Shown piece by piece: positions 1,027 to 49,253 of a stretch of DNA of 55,453 bases. The notes beneath the pieces were generated by a model. That model was given only the letters and a program-made list of their open reading frames with translations, was not told where the DNA came from and did not search any database. The stretch comes from a virus. The stretch covers positions 1-55,453 of the IMG/VR virus record IMGVR_UViG_3300047483_000550; one strand, given 5' to 3'. The position numbers and the translations under genes were made by a program. Every line of letters starts with the position of its first letter. The stretch's first letter is position 1.

Positions 1027-2859
1027 ATGAGTAAGAAAATATCATACGCAACCAGAGATTTTGCGGGATTAAGAAACGAATTAGTTAACTTAACTAAGGA
1101 TTATTATCCTGATTTGGTTAAAAATTTTAACGACGCATCAATCTATTCAGTCTTATTAGATATTAATGCTGCGGTTGCTGATAACTTACACTTTCATATC
1201 GATAGAGTTTGGCAAGAGACTATGTTGGATTTTGCACAACAAAGACAATCATTATTTCATATTGCAAAAACTTACGGTATTAGATTACCAGGAGTTAGAC
1301 CGTCAGTAGCACTATGTGACTTCTCAATAAATGTACCTGTTAGTGGTGATAAAGAGGATTTACGTTATTTAGGTATATTAAAAGCAGGTGCACAAGTTTC
1401 TGGCGGAGGTCAAGTATTTGAAACGATTGAAGATATTGATTTCTCATTACCGTACAATAGTAAAGGTGAGACGAATAGGTTAAAAATACCGAATTTTGAT
1501 AGTAACAATAGATTGTTATCCTATACCATAACTAAAAGAGAGGCGGTGGTTAACGGAACAACTAAAATTTTCAGAAGAGTAATAAATCAAGTGGATCAAA
1601 AACCATTTTTAAAACTTTACCTACCCGAACAAAACGTTTTAGGTGTGACAAGTATAATACATAAAGATGGTACAACGTTTGCCGGTAACCCAACAAGTAA
1701 CGAATTTGCGTCGTCAACTAATAAGTGGTACGAAGTTAAATCTTTAATTGAAGATAAAGTGTTTATACCCGACCCAACAGGTGAACAAGATAGACCTAAT
1801 TTTAAATCGGGAACCTATTTAAATGTTAATAATAAATTTGTTACAGAATATACACCTGAGAGTTATTTTTCAATCACATTCGGTTCGGGAACGGTTAATC
1901 CTTTGGATAATTTAGATAACTATATGAGTGGTGATATGAAAGTAAACCTTGCTAGTTATTTAAATAATATGTCATTGGGTGCGATACCAAAAACAAATAC
2001 CACATTATTTGTCAAATATCGTGTTGGTGGTGGTAAAGATTCGAATTTAGGTGTAAACGTCATTCAAACAGTCGATGATGTGGAATTTAATGTAACAGGA
2101 CCCAATTCAACCACAAATACACAAGTAGTGAACTCATTAAGAGTCACTAATATTACACCGGCAGTTGGCGGGGCAGACCAACCAACAATAGAAGAAATAC
2201 GTAATATGGTTTCTTATAATTTTTCGGCACAAAATAGAGCAGTTACGTTAAATGACTATAAAACGTTGATTGAAACTATGCCATCAACGTATGGTGCACC
2301 TGCGAAAGTTAACGTGATGGAAGAAGATAATAAGATTCGTATTAAATTATTGTCATATGATGAAAGTGGTAATTTAACCGACGTCGTGTCTAACACATTG
2401 AAAAATAACATATTAAATTATCTTTCAGAATATAGAATGATTAATGATTATATCGACGTCGTTACTGGTGAGGTTATTGATTTAGGATTGGAAATTGATT
2501 TGACAATCAATAAAAATGAAAGTCAAACAGATATCATCAAGACGGTGATTGAAGATGTGGTTAACTTCTTTGCAATTGAGAAGAGAAAAATGGGTGACCC
2601 GTTATTTGTGGGTGCGTTAAATAAAATAATTGGCACTGTTTCTGGTGTCGAGAATGTTATTGATATTAGAGTTTTCAATAAAACAGGTAGTGGTTATTCA
2701 TCTGCTGAAGTCTCACAAACTTATATCGATAATACCACGAAACAAATAAGACAGTCTGAAAGTGTAGTATTTATGAAATCCAATCAAATATTTCAAATTA
2801 GATACCCAAATAAAGACATTAAAATAAGAGTTAAAACTTTAGGCGGTAGTACTTTTTAA
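1027..2859 (+). CDS. 6: Baseplate wedge protein, gp6-like (baseplate J family)
   Basis: This 610-residue protein is recognisable as a gp6/baseplate J-type protein, the ring-forming component of the baseplate inner wedge. T4 gp6 is 660 aa. The N-terminus (residues 5-90) has the typical RDFAGLRNELVNLTK and NDASIYSVLLDINAAVADN helices. The middle carries the beta-rich J region, and around residue 395 is the conserved stretch IRNMVSYNFSAQNRAVTLND followed by YKTLIETMPSTYGAPAKV, typical of J proteins. It starts one base after the gp25-like stop, so the two are probably co-translated. A weak hairpin and T-run follow the stop. Confidence 0.88.
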   Translation: MSKKISYATRDFAGLRNELVNLTKDYYPDLVKNFNDASIYSVLLDINAAVADNLHFHIDRVWQETMLDFAQQRQSLFHIAKTYGIRLPGVRPSVALCDFSINVPVSGDKEDLRYLGILKAGAQVSGGGQVFETIEDIDFSLPYNSKGETNRLKIPNFDSNNRLLSYTITKREAVVNGTTKIFRRVINQVDQKPFLKLYLPEQNVLGVTSIIHKDGTTFAGNPTSNEFASSTNKWYEVKSLIEDKVFIPDPTGEQDRPNFKSGTYLNVNNKFVTEYTPESYFSITFGSGTVNPLDNLDNYMSGDMKVNLASYLNNMSLGAIPKTNTTLFVKYRVGGGKDSNLGVNVIQTVDDVEFNVTGPNSTTNTQVVNSLRVTNITPAVGGADQPTIEEIRNMVSYNFSAQNRAVTLNDYKTLIETMPSTYGAPAKVNVMEEDNKIRIKLLSYDESGNLTDVVSNTLKNNILNYLSEYRMINDYIDVVTGEVIDLGLEIDLTINKNESQTDIIKTVIEDVVNFFAIEKRKMGDPLFVGALNKIIGTVSGVENVIDIRVFNKTGSGYSSAEVSQTYIDNTTKQIRQSESVVFMKSNQIFQIRYPNKDIKIRVKTLGGSTF

Positions 2860-2863
2860 CCCT

Positions 2864-2882
2864 ACATTTTAAAATGTTTTTT
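2864..2882 (+). terminator. Weak AT-rich terminator candidate
   Basis: ACATT-TTAA-AATGT followed by six T residues directly after the gp6-like stop codon. The stem is only five base pairs and AT-rich, so termination would be leaky. Confidence 0.3.
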
Positions 2883-2912
2883 AGTTATAATAATAGAAAA
2901 TCGCTTAGTTTC

Positions 2913-2920
2913 TATTTATT
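2913..2920 (+). promoter_or_regulatory. TATTTATT motif, putative late promoter
   Basis: One mismatch to TATTTATA, 6 nt upstream of the ATG at 2927, in the 67-nt gap after the gp6-like gene. Confidence 0.45.
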
Positions 2921-2926
2921 ATAAGA

Positions 2927-5900
2927 ATGATTCAAAAACACAGAATTTCAACAAATATTGGTAAAGACCAAAAGATTACGGTAGAATTGAAACAAGATTT
3001 CGATGTATTGGAAATTTTGTCTTTAAAGTTTTCACAACAAGACATATATACGTCGATGTGTTCTGATTATGGAGTTGTTTGTGGTAGAATTACTGCTAAC
3101 GACGGTTTCGGTATCCCAAACGTAAGAGTTTCGATATTCGTTAAACAAAAAGATAGTGACGTAGATGACCCGGTTATTTCTAAATTGTATCCATATACGG
3201 ACACAACTATGAGAAATGATGATAACATTCGTTATAATTTATTACCAAAAAGACAACAACACGGTGGACATACCCCCGTTGGTACTTTTCCTGACCAATC
3301 TGACATTTTAACAAGAGAAGAAGTATTAGAGGTCTATGAGAGTTATTATAGATTTACGGTTAAAACAAATGAGTCTGGTGACTTTATGATTTGGGGAGTA
3401 CCTACTGGTGAACAAACATTACACGTAGATATTGATTTATCAGATATAGGTTGTTTTTCATTAAGACCATACGACTTTATTAAAAAAGGTAGGGGTGCTG
3501 ATGATTTTGATAGATATTATAAATTTAAATCAAGTACGGATATTGATGGTTTACCACAAATAATATCATACGATAAGACCATTCAAGTTTACCCATTTTG
3601 GGGTAATGAGGAAATGTGTGAAATTGGAATTACAAGAAGTGATTTTGATATGTCGGAAACAGGTATCAAAATTGAACCGATATCTTTAATATTAGCCTCA
3701 TCAATTACTGACGATGACGAAGACGCGATAAAAAGAACGGGTGTTATTAGAAGAAAAAGTGGTTATAAATGTAATTTACAAACAACTACTGGTAAAATTG
3801 AATGTGTTAGACAAACAGGTAGAAAAGTATATGGTTCGGACGGTGTAACTCTTTATCCTGAATTACAATACTACAATATTACAGAAACAATTGACGAGAA
3901 CGGTACCTCAATGATTGTACTACCGATGAATTTGGAATATGTTTACACTAATCAATTTGGTGAACAAGAATTAACAAACGACCACAATAAAGGTATACCA
4001 ACAACGGCAATTGCCAGATTTAGATTTAGTTTAGATGCTGATAATGTAAAAACAGGAACAGCGAAATACTTAGTCCCACAAATCAGAGAATTTAATGATG
4101 ATTTAATTAATGGAGGTAATTATTATGGTGAATATGAGGAATCATTTTTAACCACCTACCAATTTTCAAATGTGTTTGAAGACTATTTAAAAATTGCACC
4201 TCAAAGTGGGATGACATTCCAAGCAATGGGTAATAGCGGTACAAATCAAAATACACCAACTGCGATTGCTTGGAGAAAACACAAATTAGATTTAATGTTG
4301 GGTACTAACAATAATGGTATACCTGAAGATGTTTTCTATAAATTTATTTTTGGTAAAGTTTATACCCCCTCATCATTTCAAGGTTCACACTATGAAGTAT
4401 CTGCGGTCGAAAGTTTTTTAGGGTTATCAAGAAGAGACGCGTTCTTGGGTATAAAAGAAATTAGACCAAATGCCGAAGATGACTGTACTGGTAATGCTAA
4501 TTATATACCAACAAATTTCGCATTTAGAAATAGAATTAAATTTGGGTTAATCTTATCTGAAATTATCACATTTATTCAATATATATTTGCGGTCGTTTCT
4601 TTATTTGTTTATGAATCGGTTGGATCGGCATTGTGGTTTGCGGGTAGGTCACTAAGACAAATTGATTTACCATTTGTTGGACACGCATTAGCCGATTTTG
4701 GTAGAGATTCGTTATCGAGACCCGGATTACGTATGATGGAAGCGGGCCAAATGATTTTACCATTAACAACATATCCCGATTGTGAAGAATGTACAACAGA
4801 TCCCGATACTGGTACACCCGTTGTTAGTAATTCGTTTAACGTCGAACAGGGGTGTGCAAAATATGACAAATTTTATGATGAACCGAATAACACACATACC
4901 TACATTTGGATAAGTGGAGGTACGGGGTACGGTTCACCACTAACACCATCAAATTATGCTGGTGGTCAAGATTTAGACATACTTAAAGATTGGGGTGCAA
5001 ATTATCGACCTAATTTTAAAAAGGGTAAACCATACTATACAGGTTCACCATATACAGAATCACTTACATCTCCAGGTCCACAATGGACATTAGCGTCTTC
5101 AGTTGGTGGTGATTTAGATACACTAAGATTACCTGAAAGATGTAGAATTGATGGTGGTGATTTGTTAACCTTTAACAAAAAAACAAAATCAGGTTTATCA
5201 GAAATAAGAGATGGTGTTGTTATTATTGTTCCTGTTATTGATGGGAAAAATCGTAATTGGACAATTTTAAAAGAATGGTATAGAAGAAAAAGGGTAGGAA
5301 TTAATTTTTGTGGAGGAGTAACAAATTATTCGTTTATCGACAATTGGTTACACGGAATGCTTTATTTCTTTAAGTTTGATAAAAAAATAAAATGGGATAA
5401 CAGAACAATTCGTGATTTAAGTCAAAGAGGTTCTAAATTCCCAAGAGAATTAGTTTTCTTTAATGTATTGGATGAAACGTTTTATTATAGAACGACACCA
5501 TATAATCCTGATGCGGGTTTTTTAGGACAAGTATATAGGAATAACGACAATACAGTAAAGTATAAAGAAATTTTACACCCTACTACGTTTTATGATGTTG
5601 GAGTAAGAGATGAGTTTTTATATGAAATTTGTCAAGACCCAAGAATCGACCCAACTTGTTCGGTGATACGAGATATTACGGCAACGTCATATCAAGATCC
5701 GGCAAATATTGTTGAACACGCAATTAATTATAGAATGGATACCGCTAACGGTAATTTCGATGTGGGCGATTTCTTCACTGGAGAAGGTTTAGGTGATAAT
5801 ATCGGAATTATCGATGGGGACATAACACAATTAATGTCAATAAATTGTGAGGTAGGTATAGAGGCATTTGATTTAGATAGTCCACAATATTTTCTTTATA

Positions 5901-40821: not shown

Positions 40822-41892
40822 ATGTCAACAAAACTACCAAAGGATTATCCTTTATATGATACGGTTTACGGTACCGAAATCCCTATTGAACAATATTTTG
40901 TTATTTGTTATGATAAATTACCCTCAAAGTTCGTTAATAGTTTATCTTATGATCCAAAAATTATAGATTATCTTGTAGATAAATTAGGGTTTAAACAAGA
41001 TATTAATATATTTTCATCAAATAGGCGTTACGACTTATCGTCACAATCATTATATGTTAATGACGAAAAACAAATGATGATTAGACTTACGGGAAATGTT
41101 ATTAAAGATAAGGATCCATTAGTTCAACTTGATATTGCTTATGATTTTAAAAAAGGTAATTTGGAAAAACAATTACCAATGGACGAAATTAAAACTTTTG
41201 AAAGAAAAAGAAAAAAATCAAACATTCAATTGGTCAAAAGTGAAATGGGTCATATGGATACTGAGGAATATGACTTAGCTGTACCACAAATGGATTTAGA
41301 ATTAAATTATGGCACCGAATTTAGTAAGGTACATAAAGTAATTGTTGATAAGTTAAATGAAAATAACGGTAAGGGAATTATTTTATTACACGGTGACCCT
41401 GGTACTGGTAAAACATCGTACATCAAACACTTGACTTCATTAATCACAGATAAAGACATATTGTTCATCCCACCATCGATGGCTGAGATGTTATCCGAAC
41501 CTTCAATCATACCATTTTTGATGGACCACAAAAATTCAATCCTCATCATTGAGGATGCTGAACGAGTTATTTCGGATAGAGAGGGTAATGGTTCACCGGC
41601 GGGAGTGTCTAATATTCTTAATTTAACTGACGGTATTTTGGGTGATTGTCTAAGTATTCAAATTGTTGCAACCTTCAATATGAAACGAGAGAAGATAGAC
41701 CAAGCATTACTTAGAAAGGGTCGTTTAATTGCTGAACATAAATTCAGTAAATTAAATGTGGAAGAAACGAATAAATTATTAAAACATATCGAAAAAGATC
41801 ACGAAGTGACGGAAGGAATGACTTTGGCTGATATTTATAACATAGACGTAGAATTAATAAAAACGTCAAATAAAAGTAAAATAGGATTTTAG
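40822..41892 (+). CDS. AAA-family ATPase
   Basis: A 356-residue protein. Residues 1-165 are a less conserved N-terminal domain. Walker A is LLHGDPGTGKTSYIKHL (about 188-204), Walker B is SILIIEDAERVI (about 238-249), a sensor-1-type strand is IQIVATFNMKREKIDQALL, followed by the arginine-finger-like RKGRLIAEHKF. This matches the classical AAA clade (BCS1/FtsH/proteasome-type) rather than clamp loaders. The substrate is unknown; remodelling of a phage or host protein complex is the likely general role. The homing endonuclease gene lies directly behind it. Confidence 0.82.
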   Translation: MSTKLPKDYPLYDTVYGTEIPIEQYFVICYDKLPSKFVNSLSYDPKIIDYLVDKLGFKQDINIFSSNRRYDLSSQSLYVNDEKQMMIRLTGNVIKDKDPLVQLDIAYDFKKGNLEKQLPMDEIKTFERKRKKSNIQLVKSEMGHMDTEEYDLAVPQMDLELNYGTEFSKVHKVIVDKLNENNGKGIILLHGDPGTGKTSYIKHLTSLITDKDILFIPPSMAEMLSEPSIIPFLMDHKNSILIIEDAERVISDREGNGSPAGVSNILNLTDGILGDCLSIQIVATFNMKREKIDQALLRKGRLIAEHKFSKLNVEETNKLLKHIEKDHEVTEGMTLADIYNIDVELIKTSNKSKIGF

Positions 41893-41895
41893 TCA

Positions 41896-41927
41896 ATATG
41901 GTGGTATTTATTTATAAAACACCATAT
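41896..41927 (+). promoter_or_regulatory. Hairpin over the homing endonuclease start with TATTTATA in the loop
   Basis: ATATGGTG (41896-41903) and CACCATAT (41920-41927) form a perfect 8-bp inverted repeat. The right arm includes the first two bases of the ATG at 41926-41928. The 16-nt loop holds overlapping TATTTATT and TATTTATA motifs (41905-41916). Read-through transcripts would hide the start codon, whereas a transcript begun from the motif would lack the left arm. Confidence 0.62.
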
Positions 41928-42585
41928 GGACAAAGGAAAAATTTACAAAATAACGAATAAAATAAATAAAAAAATTTATATTGGTTGCACAGTAAAAACT
42001 TTAGAAACTCGTTATTATGAACACCTTTATAGGTGTTTTAAAAATGATTATAAAAGTAAACTTTACAATTCTATAAAAAAATACGGTGAAGAAAATTTTA
42101 CTATTGAATTAATAGAAGAATGTGATGTCAGTATTATATATGAAATTGAAAAAAAATATATTGAAAAATATGATTCTTTCAAAAACGGACTAAATAATAC
42201 GTTGGGTGGTGAAGGTTGTTTGGGTTATGTACATTCGGATGAAGTAAGGGCTAAAATTTCTAATAAGATAAAAGAAGGAAAATCACACAGAGGGAAAACT
42301 TATATAGAAATATATGGTAAAAATTGTGAAAATCAAAAAGAAAAAAGAAAAGATTCAGTTAAAAAACATTGGGATAAATTAACAAACGAAGAAAGAAGTA
42401 AAAGAATAGAAAAAATAAAAGAATCAAAAAGAAATAAATCTATTTATTCATTGGACCTAATAAAAGAAATAAAAGATAAATTAAAATTAGGAGTAAAAAT
42501 AAAAGAACTAACCCAATTATACCCAAATATTCGAAAAGGTTTTTTTTACGAATTAAAAAACGGTAGAAGGTGGTTAGATATTTAA
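41926..42585 (+). CDS. GIY-YIG homing endonuclease
   Basis: A 219-residue protein with an N-terminal GIY-YIG nuclease domain: KIYKITNKINKKIYIGCT (residues 5-22), the conserved Arg in LETRYYEHL (Arg29) and a helix with Glu in EIEKKYIEKYDSF. Downstream are basic DNA-binding segments typical of NUMOD-type modules (ISNKIKEGKSHRGKTYIEIY; KRIEKIKESKRNKSIYSL). The very Lys/Asn/AAA-rich codon use differs from its neighbours and marks it as a mobile element. It stands alone between the AAA ATPase and thioredoxin genes without disrupting either, as free-standing phage homing endonucleases do. Expression is probably controlled by the hairpin-promoter structure upstream. Confidence 0.85.
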   Translation: MDKGKIYKITNKINKKIYIGCTVKTLETRYYEHLYRCFKNDYKSKLYNSIKKYGEENFTIELIEECDVSIIYEIEKKYIEKYDSFKNGLNNTLGGEGCLGYVHSDEVRAKISNKIKEGKSHRGKTYIEIYGKNCENQKEKRKDSVKKHWDKLTNEERSKRIEKIKESKRNKSIYSLDLIKEIKDKLKLGVKIKELTQLYPNIRKGFFYELKNGRRWLDI

Positions 42586-42596
42586 ATTAAAAAATT

Positions 42597-42902
42597 ATGA
42601 GAGAAATTACTATTGATGAACTAAAACAATTACAATTAGAAGGTAAAAAAATATTGGCTGACTTCAAAGCTAAATGGTGTGTACCCTGTGGTCATTTATT
42701 AACTAGATTGGATAAAATGTCGTCGAATTACAATGATATTGAATTTGTTGCAATCGATGTTGATGATAATAAAGAAGGTTGTGTAGAATTAGGAATTCGT
42801 TCAGTACCTACTGTTATGATTTACAACGGTGAAGAATTAGTTAATCGTTCAACAGGTGCAAACGTTGATTCAGTTTATATAAAGATTTTAGATAGTTTAT
42901 AA
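42597..42902 (+). CDS. trxA: Thioredoxin
   Basis: A 101-residue thioredoxin with the redox motif WCVPC (Cys28, Cys31) in ADFKAKWCVPCGHLL, the beta strand IEFVAIDVDDN, and the cis-proline loop RSVPTVMIYNG. The second motif residue is Val instead of the usual Gly, giving C-V-P-C. It is probably an electron donor for the class I ribonucleotide reductase whose C-terminus is at the window start. Its stop overlaps the glutaredoxin ATG (TAATG). Confidence 0.92.
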   Translation: MREITIDELKQLQLEGKKILADFKAKWCVPCGHLLTRLDKMSSNYNDIEFVAIDVDDNKEGCVELGIRSVPTVMIYNGEELVNRSTGANVDSVYIKILDSL

Positions 42903-43220: not shown

Positions 43221-43252
43221 TAAAAGTATTTATGTAAAAGACTTTACTTTTA
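43221..43252 (+). promoter_or_regulatory. Inverted repeat around TATTTATG before the first fibre gene
   Basis: TAAAAGTA (43221-43228) and TACTTTTA (43245-43252) form an 8-bp inverted repeat that ends one base before the ATG at 43254. TATTTATG (43227-43234; one mismatch to TATTTATA) lies across the left arm and loop. The layout resembles the hairpin at 41896. Confidence 0.45.
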
Positions 43253-43253
43253 A

Positions 43254-45395
43254 ATGGCATTACAACGAATAAATTGGGAACAGGTCAATACCGAAAACGT
43301 AACAATAGGTTCAGTTATTGACCTCGGGTCTGAATCTACCCCGTTAAATGCGGTATACGCAAATAACATTTACATATCTGGCACAAGTATAAACAGCTTA
43401 GGTGGTGGTAACGGGTCTGACGGTACATCAGGTACATCAGGTTCGGACGGAACATCAGGTTCTTCGGGTTCTGCCGGTACATCAGGTACATCGGGTGCTC
43501 GTGGTGCTTCAGGTACGTCAGGTTCATCAGGAACTTCAGGACACGGTACTAGTGGAACATCGGGTACTAGTGGTGTTGACGGTAATAATGGTACGTCAGG
43601 TTCATCAGGAACTTCAGGTGTTTCAGGTTCATCAGGTACATCGGGTAACGGTACATCGGGTACATCGGGTACATCGGGTGCTCGTGGTGCTTCTGGTGCT
43701 TCGGGTTCTTCAGGTACGAGTGGTACAAATGGTCTTGATGGTTCTTCGGGAACATCAGGTTCTTCGGGTTCTGCCGGTACATCAGGTACATCGGGTGTGA
43801 ATGGTTCACACGGAACATCAGGTACTGCTGGTACTTCAGGTTCGTCAGGAACATCGGGTCGCAATGGTCTTGATGGTGTGAACGGTATAAATGGTACTAA
43901 CGGGTCAAGTGGTACTTCGGGTACTTCAGGTATTTCTGGTAATCACGGTACGTCAGGTTCATCAGGAACATCGGGTGCGAGAGGTTCGTCAGGTTCGTCA
44001 GGAACATCAGGTAATGTCTATCAAACATCGTCTACTACTTTAATTGGTGACGTAGACGAATTGGTTGGTACCACACAAACATTTATTGTTGATACGAACT
44101 TATCATATAGTATCGGTCAATTGGTAATTGCAGCTTACGACGTTCAAGATTACTTAATTGGTAGAGTTTCACTTTATAATAAAAATACAGGTCGATTAGA
44201 CTTATTAATAACAGATTTTGGTGGAGGTAGTTCTCACGACTCTTGGTCAATCAACTTATATAGTGCGATTGGTAGTGGTAGTGGAAGTCCATCTACTCTC
44301 AGAGTAACAGATGGTTTAACAACGGTTAACGGTGTTGACCAGATTACATTTGACGGGGCAACTGTAATTAACAATGGTAATGGTGATGTAACGGTTACCG
44401 TTGTTGGTGGTGGAGGTGTAGGAACTGATGGAACATCAGGTACTTCAGGTATTTCAGGTTCAGATGGATCTTCAGGTACTTCAGGTATTTCAGGTTCAGA
44501 TGGATCTTCAGGTACTTCAGGTACTTCAGGTACTTCAGGTATTTCAGGTTCAGATGGATCTTCAGGTACTTCAGGTATTGACGGTTCTTCAGGTACAAGT
44601 GGTATTGATGGAACTAATGGTTCTTCAGGTACAAGTGGTATTGATGGAACTAATGGTTCTTCAGGAACATCGGGTTCAGATGGATCGTCGGGAACTTCAG
44701 GTATTGATGGTACTTCAGGTACTTCAGGTATGGACGGTTCACACGGAACATCGGGTACTGCAGGTACTTCAGGTTCTTCAGGTACGTCACCCGCAGGTTT
44801 TTCGTCAGGAACATCAGGAACATCGGGTTCTAGTGGTTTTGATGGTAGTTCTGGAACGTCGGGTTCATCGGGAACTTCAGGTATTGATGGTACTTCAGGT
44901 ACTTCGGGTGTAGACGGAACATCGGGTACATCGGGGATTGATGGTTCAGATGGTACATCAGGAACAAGTGGTTCTTCAGGTAATTCAGGGGGTGCCGTTA
45001 AAGTTTATCAAATTGTATTATCATATAGTTCAAATGTTATGGACACGTTCCCTAATGGTTTGGTAAGTGTTACAGGTCCAAATGGTGAAAACGTAAGTAC
45101 ATTACAAAGTGCGGGATGGGTCTTTAGTCGAGTTGATGGAACAACACTAAGTATAAGTAGACCTATCGGTTTACAATCACAACCATTAGTTAATGTCACA
45201 ACACACGGTATTAATGGTAGTGTGGTGTGGACTAAATCACCGACTGCAGTTGCAAGTACGGGTTATGCTGCGGAACAAACATATAGTGGAGGTTTATTTA
45301 CAACATTAAAAATATACGGTTTGAACTCAACTAATACAGGTTTAGTTAGCTCTGGTGCTACGAATTTAATAATAACATTTGGTTTGATATCGTAA
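43254..45395 (+). CDS. Tail fibre protein with collagen-like Gly-Thr-Ser triplets
   Basis: A 713-residue fibre protein. Residues 1-50 are a short N-terminal domain (MALQRINWEQVNTENVTIGS; NAVYANNIYISGTSIN) of a type found at the attachment end of phage fibres. Residues about 52-252 and 390-579 consist of G-T-S, G-S-S, G-A-S, G-V-D type triplets with glycine every third position, which suggests a triple-helix-like shaft. Between them lies a globular insert (253-388) containing TTLIGDVDELVGTTQTF and LRVTDGLTTVNGVDQITFDG. The C-terminal domain (580-713) starts GGAVKVYQIVLSYSSNVMD and is probably the tip. Unlike true collagen it has almost no proline. Confidence 0.78.
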   Translation: MALQRINWEQVNTENVTIGSVIDLGSESTPLNAVYANNIYISGTSINSLGGGNGSDGTSGTSGSDGTSGSSGSAGTSGTSGARGASGTSGSSGTSGHGTSGTSGTSGVDGNNGTSGSSGTSGVSGSSGTSGNGTSGTSGTSGARGASGASGSSGTSGTNGLDGSSGTSGSSGSAGTSGTSGVNGSHGTSGTAGTSGSSGTSGRNGLDGVNGINGTNGSSGTSGTSGISGNHGTSGSSGTSGARGSSGSSGTSGNVYQTSSTTLIGDVDELVGTTQTFIVDTNLSYSIGQLVIAAYDVQDYLIGRVSLYNKNTGRLDLLITDFGGGSSHDSWSINLYSAIGSGSGSPSTLRVTDGLTTVNGVDQITFDGATVINNGNGDVTVTVVGGGGVGTDGTSGTSGISGSDGSSGTSGISGSDGSSGTSGTSGTSGISGSDGSSGTSGIDGSSGTSGIDGTNGSSGTSGIDGTNGSSGTSGSDGSSGTSGIDGTSGTSGMDGSHGTSGTAGTSGSSGTSPAGFSSGTSGTSGSSGFDGSSGTSGSSGTSGIDGTSGTSGVDGTSGTSGIDGSDGTSGTSGSSGNSGGAVKVYQIVLSYSSNVMDTFPNGLVSVTGPNGENVSTLQSAGWVFSRVDGTTLSISRPIGLQSQPLVNVTTHGINGSVVWTKSPTAVASTGYAAEQTYSGGLFTTLKIYGLNSTNTGLVSSGATNLIITFGLIS
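43408..44990 (+). repeat. Two collagen-like triplet arrays in the first fibre gene
   Basis: Triplet arrays at about 43408-44010 and 44424-44990 encode G-[TSV]-[SDA] units. Serine is coded by TCA, TCG, TCT and AGT in mixture, so long exact DNA repeats are partly avoided. The second array contains more regular units (GGTATTTCAGGTTCAGATGG-type). Confidence 0.9.
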
Positions 45396-45410: not shown

Positions 45411-48400
45411 ATGGGAATACACGTACCTGAGAAAATATTGGTTGGTAAAATAAAATTTGGAACAACATTTGTTTCGGGATTCTATAGTGATAACACTAGT
45501 CCGTATGATGGGGCTCCATTATCGTATACCGCAACATTTGAAGTTCCATCATATAGTGCCGGTTATCCAGGATACTACAACAATCCTAATTTATACAATG
45601 TTAATGATGTCCAAGTAGGTTGGCAATTTCTCTTACCAAATGGTAAATGGTATGACATCACAAATGTGGTATCAACAAATGGAGATAATGAAATTGTTTT
45701 ACAAATTACTGACACCGATTTACGAGTTTTAACGACCGATTCAAACAACGACCCACCAAATAATGGCCCGACTGAGGGTAATTATGGTATTTTATTTCCG
45801 TTAGTTAATGGAGTACCACAAATTGCAAATTTATCTAATTTCACCTCGGCGTTTCCTATTGATAGTTATTGGATTGATGATTTACACGGTGTTGCCACAT
45901 CATATTTGGCCGCAAATGGTGGATCGGGTTCTGCGGGTACCGCCGGTACGTCAGGCACTTCAGGTGTTGATGGTGTTAGTGGTACGAGTGGTACATCGGG
46001 TTCTTCGGGTACGAGTGGTGTTGACGGCACATCAGGAACAAGTGGGTCTTCTGGAATATCGGGTGTAGATGGTACATCGGGTTCTTCGGGAACAAGTGGT
46101 TCTAGTGGAACATCGGGAGATAGTTTATTTGCACTTACAGGTTCTGTTTGGGCAACAACAAACGACATTGAAATTACGGGTAGTTTAAGTATCACATCAC
46201 AATTAGGAGTGGTTGATGCTAATATAGTGATGACTGATAGTTCATCATTATATATGACGAGTGGGTCGAATATCTATGTCGACGGAGGAATTATTAGTGG
46301 TGCATATATCTACGGTGATGGTTCTAATTTAATTAATATTCCGGCAAGTGGTGTTACAGGATTACAACTTAATCAAATTACAAATGGAGACGCTACTGCA
46401 TCTATTACACCTGATGGATTACAAATAAATGTACCCACGTCAATTACCGGAGCATTGTATGTTGACGGAATAATTACCGCAAAGGAATTACATATTGATT
46501 ATGTAACATCTTCTATTTTATATCAATCAGGTTCGACTAAATTTGGGGATACGACAGATGACATTCACGAATTTACTGGTTCATTGTTTATAAGTGGTTC
46601 CATTAATATTAACGAAGGTGATTTATTAATTAATGGTGTCCCATTCTCGGCAATGACATCGGGTACATCAGGAACAAGTGGTTCTAGTGGAACATCGGGA
46701 GTTGACGGAGTTTCGGGTACTAGTGGTACTTCAGGTTCAGATGGAACTAGTGGTTCATCAGGTACCAGTGGTGTTGATGGTGTTAGTGGAACATCAGGAA
46801 CAAGTGGTACATCTGGTTCTTCGGGTATCTCAGGTGTGGATGGAACAAATGGTTCTTCTGGTACTTCAGGTACTAGTGGTATTGATGGAACGTCAGGATC
46901 TAGTGGTACTTCAGGTTCAGATGGGTCTTCAGGTTCAAGTGGTACTTCAGGTACATCTGGAGTTGACGGAGTTTCAGGTACTAGTGGTACTTCAGGTACT
47001 TCGGGTTCGGATGGGACAAGTGGTTCTTCAGGTACTAGTGGTGTTGATGGTGTTAGTGGAACGAGTGGTACGTCAGGAACAAGTGGTTCTAGTGGAACAT
47101 CGGGAGATAGTTTATTTGCACTTACAGGTTCTGTTTGGGCAACAACAAACGACATTGAAATTACGGGATCATTATCGATAACCTCACAGTTAGGGGTAAC
47201 AGATTCAAATATAATAATGACAGATAGTTCTTCACTTTATTTAACAAGTGGAAGTAATATATATGTCGACGGAGGAATTATTAGTGGGGCCTACATTTAT
47301 GGTGACGGTTCTAATTTAATTAATATTCCAGCAAGTGGGGTTACGGGATTAGAATTAAATAAAATAGTTAGCGGAAATGCGAGTGCATCAATAGAAGAAA
47401 CAGGACTTTATGTTAATAGGGATGTTTATATCGATGGTATATTAACTGCAAAGGAATTACATATTGATTATGTAACATCTTCAGTCCTTTATCAAAGCGG
47501 TAGTACTAAATTCGGTGATACTTTAGACGATACTCACCAAATTACGGGGTCAGTTGATATCACGGGTTCATTATATTTAAATGGACAACCCGTAGGTGTT
47601 GGGAAATTGGATGAATCTTGGTTTAATAATTATGTATCAAGCTCAACATCACAATTTGCGGGTACGTCGTCATATGCTATATGGGCTGAGAATGCTGTAA
47701 TAGTATCAGGAGCAAATAAACAGCTACACGTTTCCTCACCATCAAATACTTGGTCATTTACACATAATTTACACGAAAGATATCCGGTAATAAATGTATT
47801 TGACAGTAACGGTTACATCGTTGTACCCGAAAGTATTAGAAGTATCAATCAAGATACGATTGAAGTTTATTTTAACACACCCGAAACGGGCCACGTTGTT
47901 GCTTCTGTCGGAGGTGCAGGTACATCAGGAACATCAGGCTCGTCAGGATCGAGCGGTGCATCAACAAGTTACTTCTTTTATAAAGTAAAAACGACAACAT
48001 TTGGTGGTAACCCTGGTGGATTCCATTTAAATTATACAGATTCCACACAAATCAATTCCAATCAAATTAATGTTAGTCACATTACAGATGATCAAACAGA
48101 TATTGATATATTTTTAAAATTAATATCTGAAAATCAGTTTATAACAATCCAAGATAGAAACGAGTCTAATAATTATCAAATATGGCAAGTTAATGGTACA
48201 CTAACACAGATTATTGATGTACCAAATTATTGGACAATCCCCGTTACACTTGTTGAATCGGGTGGTACGGGTACGACTAACTTTAGTAATGATCACGAAG
48301 TATTTCTTACTATATCACAGGTTAGTGGAACTTCAGGTACGTCCGGAACTAGCGGTTCTTCAGGTACTAGTGGTGTTGATGGTGTTAGTGGAACGTCAGG

Positions 48401-49253
48401 AACAAGTGGTTCTAGTGGAACGTCGGGTTCTTCAGGTATTTCAGGTGTAGACGGTACAAATGGTTCATCAGGTTCTTCAGGGACAAGTGGAACATCCGGA
48501 ACTAGTGGTACTTCAGGGGATAGTTTATTTGCATTAACAGGATCACATTGGAACACAACGAACAATGTTCAAATTACCGGTTCATTAGATATTACATCTC
48601 AATTAGGTATTATCGATTCGAATGTAATTGTAACCGATAGTTCATCACTTTATTTAACAAGTGGTTCCAATTTATATATACTCAATGGACAAGCCGATTT
48701 AACGAATACCGATTTAACAATTAATACGGGTAATTTAACTGTTAATAACGGAACAATCAGTGGGTCATTTGTTGGTGATGGTGCTGGTTTATATAACATT
48801 CCATACACTGGTATTACCGGACTACAATTAGATAGAATTGTTAGTAATGACGTAAGTGCATCGTTAGAAAACGGAACACTTGATATCAATACTAATGTCA
48901 ACATTGATGGTATATTAACCGCAAAGGAATTACATATTGATTATGTAACATCTTCTATTTTATATCAATCAGGTTCAACTAAATTCGGCGATACTTTAGA
49001 TGATACTCACCAAATTACAGGTTCGTTATATACGACTGGTTCGGTTACGATTGATGGAGATTTAATTGTTAATGGTACAACAATATTAAGAACTACAGAT
49101 CCACTAAGAGATTCGTTGATTATATCGGGAGCTTTAGCTATGGTTTATGCTCAAATTCAATCACAAATTGTGTCAGCATCCATATCAATGGGTAGTCAGA
49201 CGGTTTTATTACAGGATCAAAATAACATTGTTATGGATTTAGGAGGATTTTAA
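45411..49253 (+). CDS. Large modular tail fibre protein (collagen-like arrays and repeated globular cassettes)
   Basis: A 1280-residue fibre. Residues 1-165 are a unique N-terminal domain (MGIHVPEKILVGKIKFGTTF). Collagen-like arrays lie at about 166-235, 416-564 and 971-1036. Between them are three copies of a cassette beginning GDSLFALTGSVWATTNDIEI or a variant, with VDGIITAKELHIDYVTSSIL, then YQSGSTKFGDT-x-DD-x-H, starting near bases 46111, 47103 and 48516. A further module HNLHERYPVINVFDSNGYIV (from about base 47763) is a receptor-contact-like beta domain common in phage fibres. The C-terminal end (SIMGSQ-like, MDLGGF) is Gln/Ser-rich. Domain repetition by internal duplication is obvious. 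Confidence 0.78.
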   Translation: MGIHVPEKILVGKIKFGTTFVSGFYSDNTSPYDGAPLSYTATFEVPSYSAGYPGYYNNPNLYNVNDVQVGWQFLLPNGKWYDITNVVSTNGDNEIVLQITDTDLRVLTTDSNNDPPNNGPTEGNYGILFPLVNGVPQIANLSNFTSAFPIDSYWIDDLHGVATSYLAANGGSGSAGTAGTSGTSGVDGVSGTSGTSGSSGTSGVDGTSGTSGSSGISGVDGTSGSSGTSGSSGTSGDSLFALTGSVWATTNDIEITGSLSITSQLGVVDANIVMTDSSSLYMTSGSNIYVDGGIISGAYIYGDGSNLINIPASGVTGLQLNQITNGDATASITPDGLQINVPTSITGALYVDGIITAKELHIDYVTSSILYQSGSTKFGDTTDDIHEFTGSLFISGSININEGDLLINGVPFSAMTSGTSGTSGSSGTSGVDGVSGTSGTSGSDGTSGSSGTSGVDGVSGTSGTSGTSGSSGISGVDGTNGSSGTSGTSGIDGTSGSSGTSGSDGSSGSSGTSGTSGVDGVSGTSGTSGTSGSDGTSGSSGTSGVDGVSGTSGTSGTSGSSGTSGDSLFALTGSVWATTNDIEITGSLSITSQLGVTDSNIIMTDSSSLYLTSGSNIYVDGGIISGAYIYGDGSNLINIPASGVTGLELNKIVSGNASASIEETGLYVNRDVYIDGILTAKELHIDYVTSSVLYQSGSTKFGDTLDDTHQITGSVDITGSLYLNGQPVGVGKLDESWFNNYVSSSTSQFAGTSSYAIWAENAVIVSGANKQLHVSSPSNTWSFTHNLHERYPVINVFDSNGYIVVPESIRSINQDTIEVYFNTPETGHVVASVGGAGTSGTSGSSGSSGASTSYFFYKVKTTTFGGNPGGFHLNYTDSTQINSNQINVSHITDDQTDIDIFLKLISENQFITIQDRNESNNYQIWQVNGTLTQIIDVPNYWTIPVTLVESGGTGTTNFSNDHEVFLTISQVSGTSGTSGTSGSSGTSGVDGVSGTSGTSGSSGTSGSSGISGVDGTNGSSGSSGTSGTSGTSGTSGDSLFALTGSHWNTTNNVQITGSLDITSQLGIIDSNVIVTDSSSLYLTSGSNLYILNGQADLTNTDLTINTGNLTVNNGTISGSFVGDGAGLYNIPYTGITGLQLDRIVSNDVSASLENGTLDINTNVNIDGILTAKELHIDYVTSSILYQSGSTKFGDTLDDTHQITGSLYTTGSVTIDGDLIVNGTTILRTTDPLRDSLIISGALAMVYAQIQSQIVSASISMGSQTVLLQDQNNIVMDLGGF
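46089..46180 (+). repeat. Exact 92-bp direct repeat, copy 1
   Basis: Identical to 47076-47167. It covers the end of a triplet array and the start of the GDSLFALTGS cassette. Confidence 0.9.
47076..47167 (+). repeat. Exact 92-bp direct repeat, copy 2
   Basis: Identical to 46089-46180, 987 bp downstream and in the same frame, so recombination between them would delete an in-frame 329-residue unit. Confidence 0.9.

Follow-up and report, generated by a model that had tools for sequence, protein, structure and literature searches.

A homing endonuclease gene whose start codon lies within a predicted hairpin

The stretch of DNA analyzed here, referred to as the window, comprises 55,453 nt from a T4-like phage (positions 1 to 55,453 of IMG/VR record IMGVR_UViG_3300047483_000550). 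It carries a free-standing GIY-YIG homing endonuclease gene between genes for an AAA ATPase and a thioredoxin, and a hairpin that begins at the ATPase stop codon and ends in the second codon of the endonuclease. The relevant features are listed below.

40822..41892, + strand: AAA ATPase gene, 5′ of the endonuclease (stop codon TAG at 41890-41892)
41892..41894, + strand: outer 5′ arm of the hairpin, GTC, whose G is the final base of the ATPase stop codon
41896..41903, + strand: 5′ arm of the hairpin, ATATGGTG, present only in transcripts that read in from upstream
41904..41919, + strand: 16-nt loop, GTATTTATTTATAAAA, with the promoter-like motif GTATTTAT
41920..41927, + strand: 3′ arm of the hairpin, CACCATAT, ending in the A and T of the endonuclease start codon
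41926..42585, + strand: GIY-YIG homing endonuclease gene (219 aa, I-TevI-type catalytic domain), from its ORF and Pfam, PHROG and PDB profiles
41929..41931, + strand: outer 3′ arm of the hairpin, GAC, which is codon 2 of the endonuclease
42597..42902, + strand: thioredoxin gene, directly 3′ of the endonuclease and its neighbor in all eight distinct homologues
43226..43253, + strand: reference copy of the motif (GTATTTATGTAAAAG), conserved in relatives and preceding a collagen-like tail gene

The assignment of the endonuclease is based on matches of its ORF to the Pfam GIY-YIG profile (1.4e-5, exceeding the Pfam cut-off) and to a PHROG homing endonuclease (1.3e-26), and on a family profile that matches the I-TevI catalytic domain (PDB 1mk0/1ln0). 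A protein search returned a weak partial match in the uncultured phage cr1_1 and nothing else, and a DNA search of annotated phages gave no match. The nearest cultured terminase belongs to Flavobacterium phage immuto (29% identity), and a Bacteroidota host for the window phage is plausible. Further downstream, positions 43254-45395 and 45411-49253 hold very long tail-fibre genes, the first of which encodes collagen-like GTSGTSG repeats.

A preliminary description of this DNA reported a perfect 8-bp inverted repeat overlapping the endonuclease start codon, and the arms, the loop and the ATG (41926-41928) are exactly as it gave them. Beyond a single A/G mismatch, the outer GTC/GAC pairs extend the 8-bp stem, and the loop holds two overlapping TATTTAT copies (41905-41911 and 41909-41915). 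Folding of the 101-nt hairpin region predicts a stable structure over the start (-16.5 kcal/mol, compared to a shuffled mean of -7.85; z -3.84), and none of 200 shuffles was equally stable. The stem sequence is single-copy in the window and appears in none of the shuffles. Stems with at least 8 perfect pairs, including at least 3 GC pairs, over the ATG position were found in 2 of 4000 shuffles of the window leader and at 2 of the 807 genes of three related genomes, one of which encodes another GIY-YIG endonuclease. An Rfam search with the hairpin matched no known RNA family.

Occupied and empty sites

The endonuclease is absent from all 52 viral contigs that carry the neighboring ATPase gene. 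In 50 of these the ATPase stop codon is followed by the thioredoxin start, in L020 a glutaredoxin-like gene takes that place, and in L013 the thioredoxin start is visible before the contig ends. Compared to these 52 empty sites, the occupied window has a homing endonuclease gene inserted among co-oriented phage genes. Because the ATPase runs into the next gene in contigs that lack the endonuclease, the insert begins with the hairpin.

Eight distinct homologues, namely the window gene and those of L053, L056, L058, L122, L124, L128 and L129, were available for comparison. The seven further proteins are 51-66% identical to that of the window, and all of their genes directly precede a thioredoxin gene (that of L056 was read from the longer duplicate L057) while the upstream genes differ. 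Therefore, the cleavage site is probably in or near the conserved thioredoxin gene. In L056/L057, a second GIY-YIG-like ORF (VYLHRRLDNNEVFYVGRGT...) lies on the opposite strand near the endonuclease (2518-3333, - strand).

The hairpin is kept in six of the eight homologues, with stems of 8 bp in the window, 7 in L129, 6 in L056 and L058, and 5 in L053, and with 4 bp plus outer GCT/AGC pairs in L124. [AG]TATTTAT or a one-base variant is present at the same place in all eight. The CACCA 3′ arm is lost in L122 and L128, where the motif remains and the 5′ arm is kept entirely or for the most part; L128 has no comparable hairpin. Thus, relatives that carry the endonuclease retain the motif and, in most cases, the repeat, as expected from the preliminary description.

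The pairing itself was examined in the six stem-bearing homologues after anchoring on GGTG/CACC by eye and omitting the loop, a procedure by which the counts lean toward structure. Under these conditions 77.8% of cells are paired, a value reached by 1 of 500 shuffles; 5 of 12 pairs show changes on both sides, and sliding the partner strand reduces pairing. The mean z of this family is -2.16. Exchanging arms among members had no significant effect (3116 of 20,000 permutations), because arm sequence is mostly conserved in the window family.

A promoter-like motif before structural genes

TATTTAT sits 5-21 nt 5′ of about a dozen window genes, although over the whole window it is no more frequent than chance would give (32 copies against 40 expected). 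Among upstream words, [AG]TATTTAT ranks first or close to first by enrichment in three related phage genomes (G001, G003 and G004), where ATATTTAT, GTATTTAT and TATTTATA belong to the most enriched words at 10-19-fold. The T4 late promoter motif is TATAAATA. This word is not prominent upstream of genes, where the enriched word is TATTTAT in the coding orientation.

Genes for virion parts and lysis are among those that follow the motif. In relatives bearing the ATPase gene, GTATTTAT precedes three tail genes, two of them by 18-30 nt and the third by about 65 nt. In G004, motif-bearing genes include those for tail sheath, tail tube, portal, large terminase, head protease, baseplate wedge, head-tail adaptor and endolysin, where the first ten proteins scanned were picked because several looked structural and the next twenty mostly had no assigned function. 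Ten genes without the motif, taken from a random sample, gave no convincing structural match. In the 50 kb examined of Flavobacterium phage immuto, TATTTAT is again the top upstream word and precedes terminase, portal, sheath, tube and hub genes. Taken together, the upstream enrichment and the genes concerned make it very likely that the TATTTAT-type motif is a real phage promoter.

The preliminary description had also called the loop motif a putative late promoter. Its conservation and its enrichment before structural genes support the promoter part of this proposal. However, the late timing is presumed, and in 14 of 22 relatives the motif also stands before NusG in the upstream operon.

Three relatives lack a Shine-Dalgarno signal genome-wide: 8 of 807 genes have one, compared to 13 in a control interval. 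Genome-wide, in G001, G003 and G004 (L081-L121), the spacing between [AG]TATTTAT and ATG peaks at 4-5 nt and also at about 12-21 nt, a distribution suggesting that many mRNAs in these T4-like phages are leaderless.

A second endonuclease family with independent stems

The same layout recurs in a SegB-like family of GIY-YIG genes. Its G003 member is 30% identical to the window protein over 175 residues and 39-41% identical to T-even SegB-type proteins, and its leader folds at -23.1 kcal/mol (z -7.04). In nearly all of the homologues L212-L291, a strong hairpin carries TATTTAT at its apex or close to it, and the ATG falls within or at the 3′ arm; the stem sequences are wholly different between subgroups. 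When these genes are grouped into 30 sequence clusters, z is below -3 in 25, reaching about -8, and 23 of the 30 combine such a value with an ATG paired upstream with a probability above 0.5.

The mean z of the SegB-like family is -4.84 versus -0.23 for 148 other motif-bearing genes from three genomes, of which only 10 have z below -3, one being the G003 SegB-like endonuclease itself. The two endonuclease families together differ from the 148 genes with a Mann-Whitney p of 1e-16. Arms from the same leader also bind one another more strongly (-15.2 kcal/mol on average) than arms exchanged between members (-9.3 kcal/mol), and none of 20,000 permutations reached the observed total. If transcription is assumed to start about 6 nt past the motif, nearly all pairs disappear and the remaining RNA folds at 0 to -3.9 kcal/mol.

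Two other GIY-YIG matches were set aside, one that resembles UvrC by sequence and one 105-aa ORF. A search of 16 records with the HNH_3 profile gave no matches, and the HNH profile found one small ORF in G003 with the motif but no hairpin over its ATG. For a named Rhizobium phage homologue, the start position tried showed no clear hairpin.

Loop sequences and the motifs of individual phages

A loop that matches the phage's own motif is a prediction of the promoter reading, and three contigs, a small sample, permit this comparison. They come from the SegB-like family, in which 5 of 30 clusters lack both TATTTAT and its TACTTAT variant. In G028 (L283), TATTTAT is upstream of no called gene and the enriched words are TAAAATAA, AATATATA and GAATATAT; the endonuclease loop is GTGAATATATAAAATAAAG, which carries the enriched words of that phage (GAATATATAAAATAA). 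The loop in G029 (L250) contains AGTATTTATA, and GTATTTAT is enriched 15-fold in the contig. The case of G027 (L288) is less clear-cut, with TGATTATA as the top word, GAATATAT and AATATATA enriched, and a loop of ATGTATATAATATAAAA.

Proposed mechanism

We propose that the endonuclease insert brings a control element with it, located at its left end. Read-through RNA from the upstream operon would contain both arms and form a hairpin that hides the start codon, such that the endonuclease is off. The loop DNA would serve as a promoter of the phage's dominant structural-gene type, with the motif [AG]TATTTAT. RNA polymerase starting a few bases past this motif would yield a translatable mRNA with almost no leader and without the 5′ arm. 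The position of the motif, together with the assumed start about 6 nt downstream, fits a promoter placed in this way. Promoter activity, the start point, the translational block and late timing are the elements that we infer.

Given the predicted hairpin, the motif, their conservation, the coupling of SegB-like arms and the loop-motif match in the contigs examined, we consider it likely, with some confidence, that the element is a translational lock on read-through RNA that is bypassed by a promoter within the hairpin. On long transcripts, the stable hairpin is predicted to sequester the translation start. Because these phages have no Shine-Dalgarno signals, it is the start codon itself that would be sequestered.

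The earlier proposal of an I-TevI-like hairpin and promoter logic on a GIY-YIG gene agrees with the conserved anatomy and with a second family that has the same layout and different stems. Since hairpin and motif are conserved and repeated in that second family, the mechanism put forward in the preliminary description is well supported by sequence comparison. Of its further claim, that the gene is silent early and on late, the silencing of read-through RNA is supported by prediction, but the early/late timing is our presumption. The motif precedes the upstream NusG gene in 14 of 22 relatives, so the operon ahead of the endonuclease may share this type of promoter; “silent on read-through transcripts” is therefore the safe statement, and the switch may separate read-through RNA from own-promoter RNA rather than early from late.

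Other explanations for the inverted repeat

One alternative is that the inverted repeat acts at the DNA level, as an operator that overlaps the promoter and is recognized by the endonuclease itself or by some other dimeric repressor, with the RNA hairpin as a by-product. The 5′ arm and motif (TTGGTGATATTTAT) are conserved even in L128, where the 3′ arm is lost, and autorepression of a late promoter by I-TevI is documented (PMC2988022). However, the SegB-like stems diverge completely with pairing kept, which fits a structure and not a fixed binding sequence, and we regard an operator as unlikely. The hairpin region has no similarity to the thioredoxin gene above shuffled controls; the more specific idea of an autorepressor whose operator resembles its homing site was rejected, since an 18-mer comparison of the hairpin with that gene gave no match exceeding those of shuffles.

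Chance would account for the repeat if it were simply a product of AT-rich DNA beside an ordinary promoter, and both the missing 3′ arm in two of eight homologues and the predicted ATG pairing of some kind at 57 of the 148 other motif genes point in that direction. Yet the rarity of comparable stems in shuffles (2/4000) and at genes (2/807), the retention of the hairpin in six of eight homologues, the outcome of the arm-swap test and the recurrence of the layout in a second endonuclease family, at z values down to about -8, make coincidence very improbable. Slightly less probable still is that the hairpin terminates transcription of the ATPase gene or serves in RNA processing, with no connection to endonuclease translation. 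Its beginning at the final base of the ATPase stop codon would fit such a role, but stems of unrelated sequence have the start codon within or at the 3′ arm, and the hairpin belongs to the insert, with empty sites lacking it. A terminator was rejected in particular, because no T-run follows the stem and a terminator scan finds none there. An upstream in-frame start codon within the 5′ arm was likewise discarded; L053 has such a codon, but the one at 41898 in the window is not in frame with 41926.

Relationship to known switches

A hairpin/late-promoter switch has been described for I-TevI of T4 (PMC2988022, PMC3014915), with similar arrangements for I-TevII, I-TevIII, segB and Aeh1 mobE (PMC2988022), the last of which was tested (PMC3014915). 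According to that T4 review, sequestration of the ribosome-binding site was shown experimentally for mobE, an HNH enzyme (Gibb and Edgell, via PMC2988022). Our literature search, in which few subscription journals were covered, found no report of the switch outside T-even-like and Aeromonas phages.

The window gene shares with I-TevI of the T4 td intron a GIY-YIG, I-TevI-type catalytic domain, a hairpin (predicted here) over the translation start on long transcripts, and a promoter, putative in the window from motif position, so placed that the gene's own transcript lacks the 5′ arm. In contrast to I-TevI, it is free-standing rather than located in an intron, its hairpin covers the start codon with no Shine-Dalgarno sequence, and its motif is TATTTAT rather than TATAAATA. 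T4 segB, a GIY-YIG gene with a predicted late promoter and hairpin, is likewise free-standing, and the second family (L212-L291) is SegB-like, at about 39-41% identity to T-even-type proteins. The segB leader of phage PP01 folds at -21.4 kcal/mol with ACATAAATAC in its 5′ arm, whereas the motif here is TATTTAT or another phage-specific word, Shine-Dalgarno signals are absent, and the window protein shares only 30% identity with the SegB-like family. The free-standing mobE gene of Aeromonas phage Aeh1 resembles the window gene in that a hairpin sequesters its translation start (predicted for the window), but the window enzyme is GIY-YIG rather than HNH. The known T4-type switch sequesters a Shine-Dalgarno ribosome-binding site, unlike the window feature, which has the start codon in its stem.

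Judged from sequence, what distinguishes the present element from the I-TevI, segB and mobE switches is the predicted sequestration of a start codon without a Shine-Dalgarno sequence, the promoter motif, and the phage lineage. The likeness could reflect either inheritance from a common ancestor of SegB-like genes or convergence. Comparative sequence data indicate that a trick described for a few T-even phages and one Aeromonas phage is widespread in an unexplored phage group. Because the stems change fully with pairing kept and, in those contigs that were compared, the loop tracks the promoter-like motif of the phage itself, the way in which a mobile gene adjusts to the transcription program of each new host genome becomes accessible to study. 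Homing-endonuclease leaders may also reveal the promoter motif of uncultivated phages.

A broader proposal, to which we give even odds, is that GIY-YIG endonucleases across many uncultivated T4-like phages repeatedly rebuild this switch by forming a start-codon hairpin of arbitrary sequence around the resident phage's strong promoter. Such an element would be selected as a structure, would stay matched as the enzyme passes to phages that use other promoters, and would govern near-leaderless initiation in the absence of Shine-Dalgarno sequences.

Hairpins at other genes

Among distant GIY-YIG homologues of the window protein (32-53% identity), the layout is mostly missing. Some more remote GIY-YIG genes (L137, L145, L146, L170 and L175) have a strong hairpin just 5′ of the ATG and not over it (e.g., AGAAACCTATTATTATAAATAGTAGTAGGTTTCT), which perhaps serves as a terminator or for other control. 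In G001, a perfect stem of 11 bp, TTATCCATAAG/CTTATGGATAA, spans the ATG of a gene that is not recognized as an endonuclease (L102; MDNFFNYVTKQVSPEEVDLWF...).
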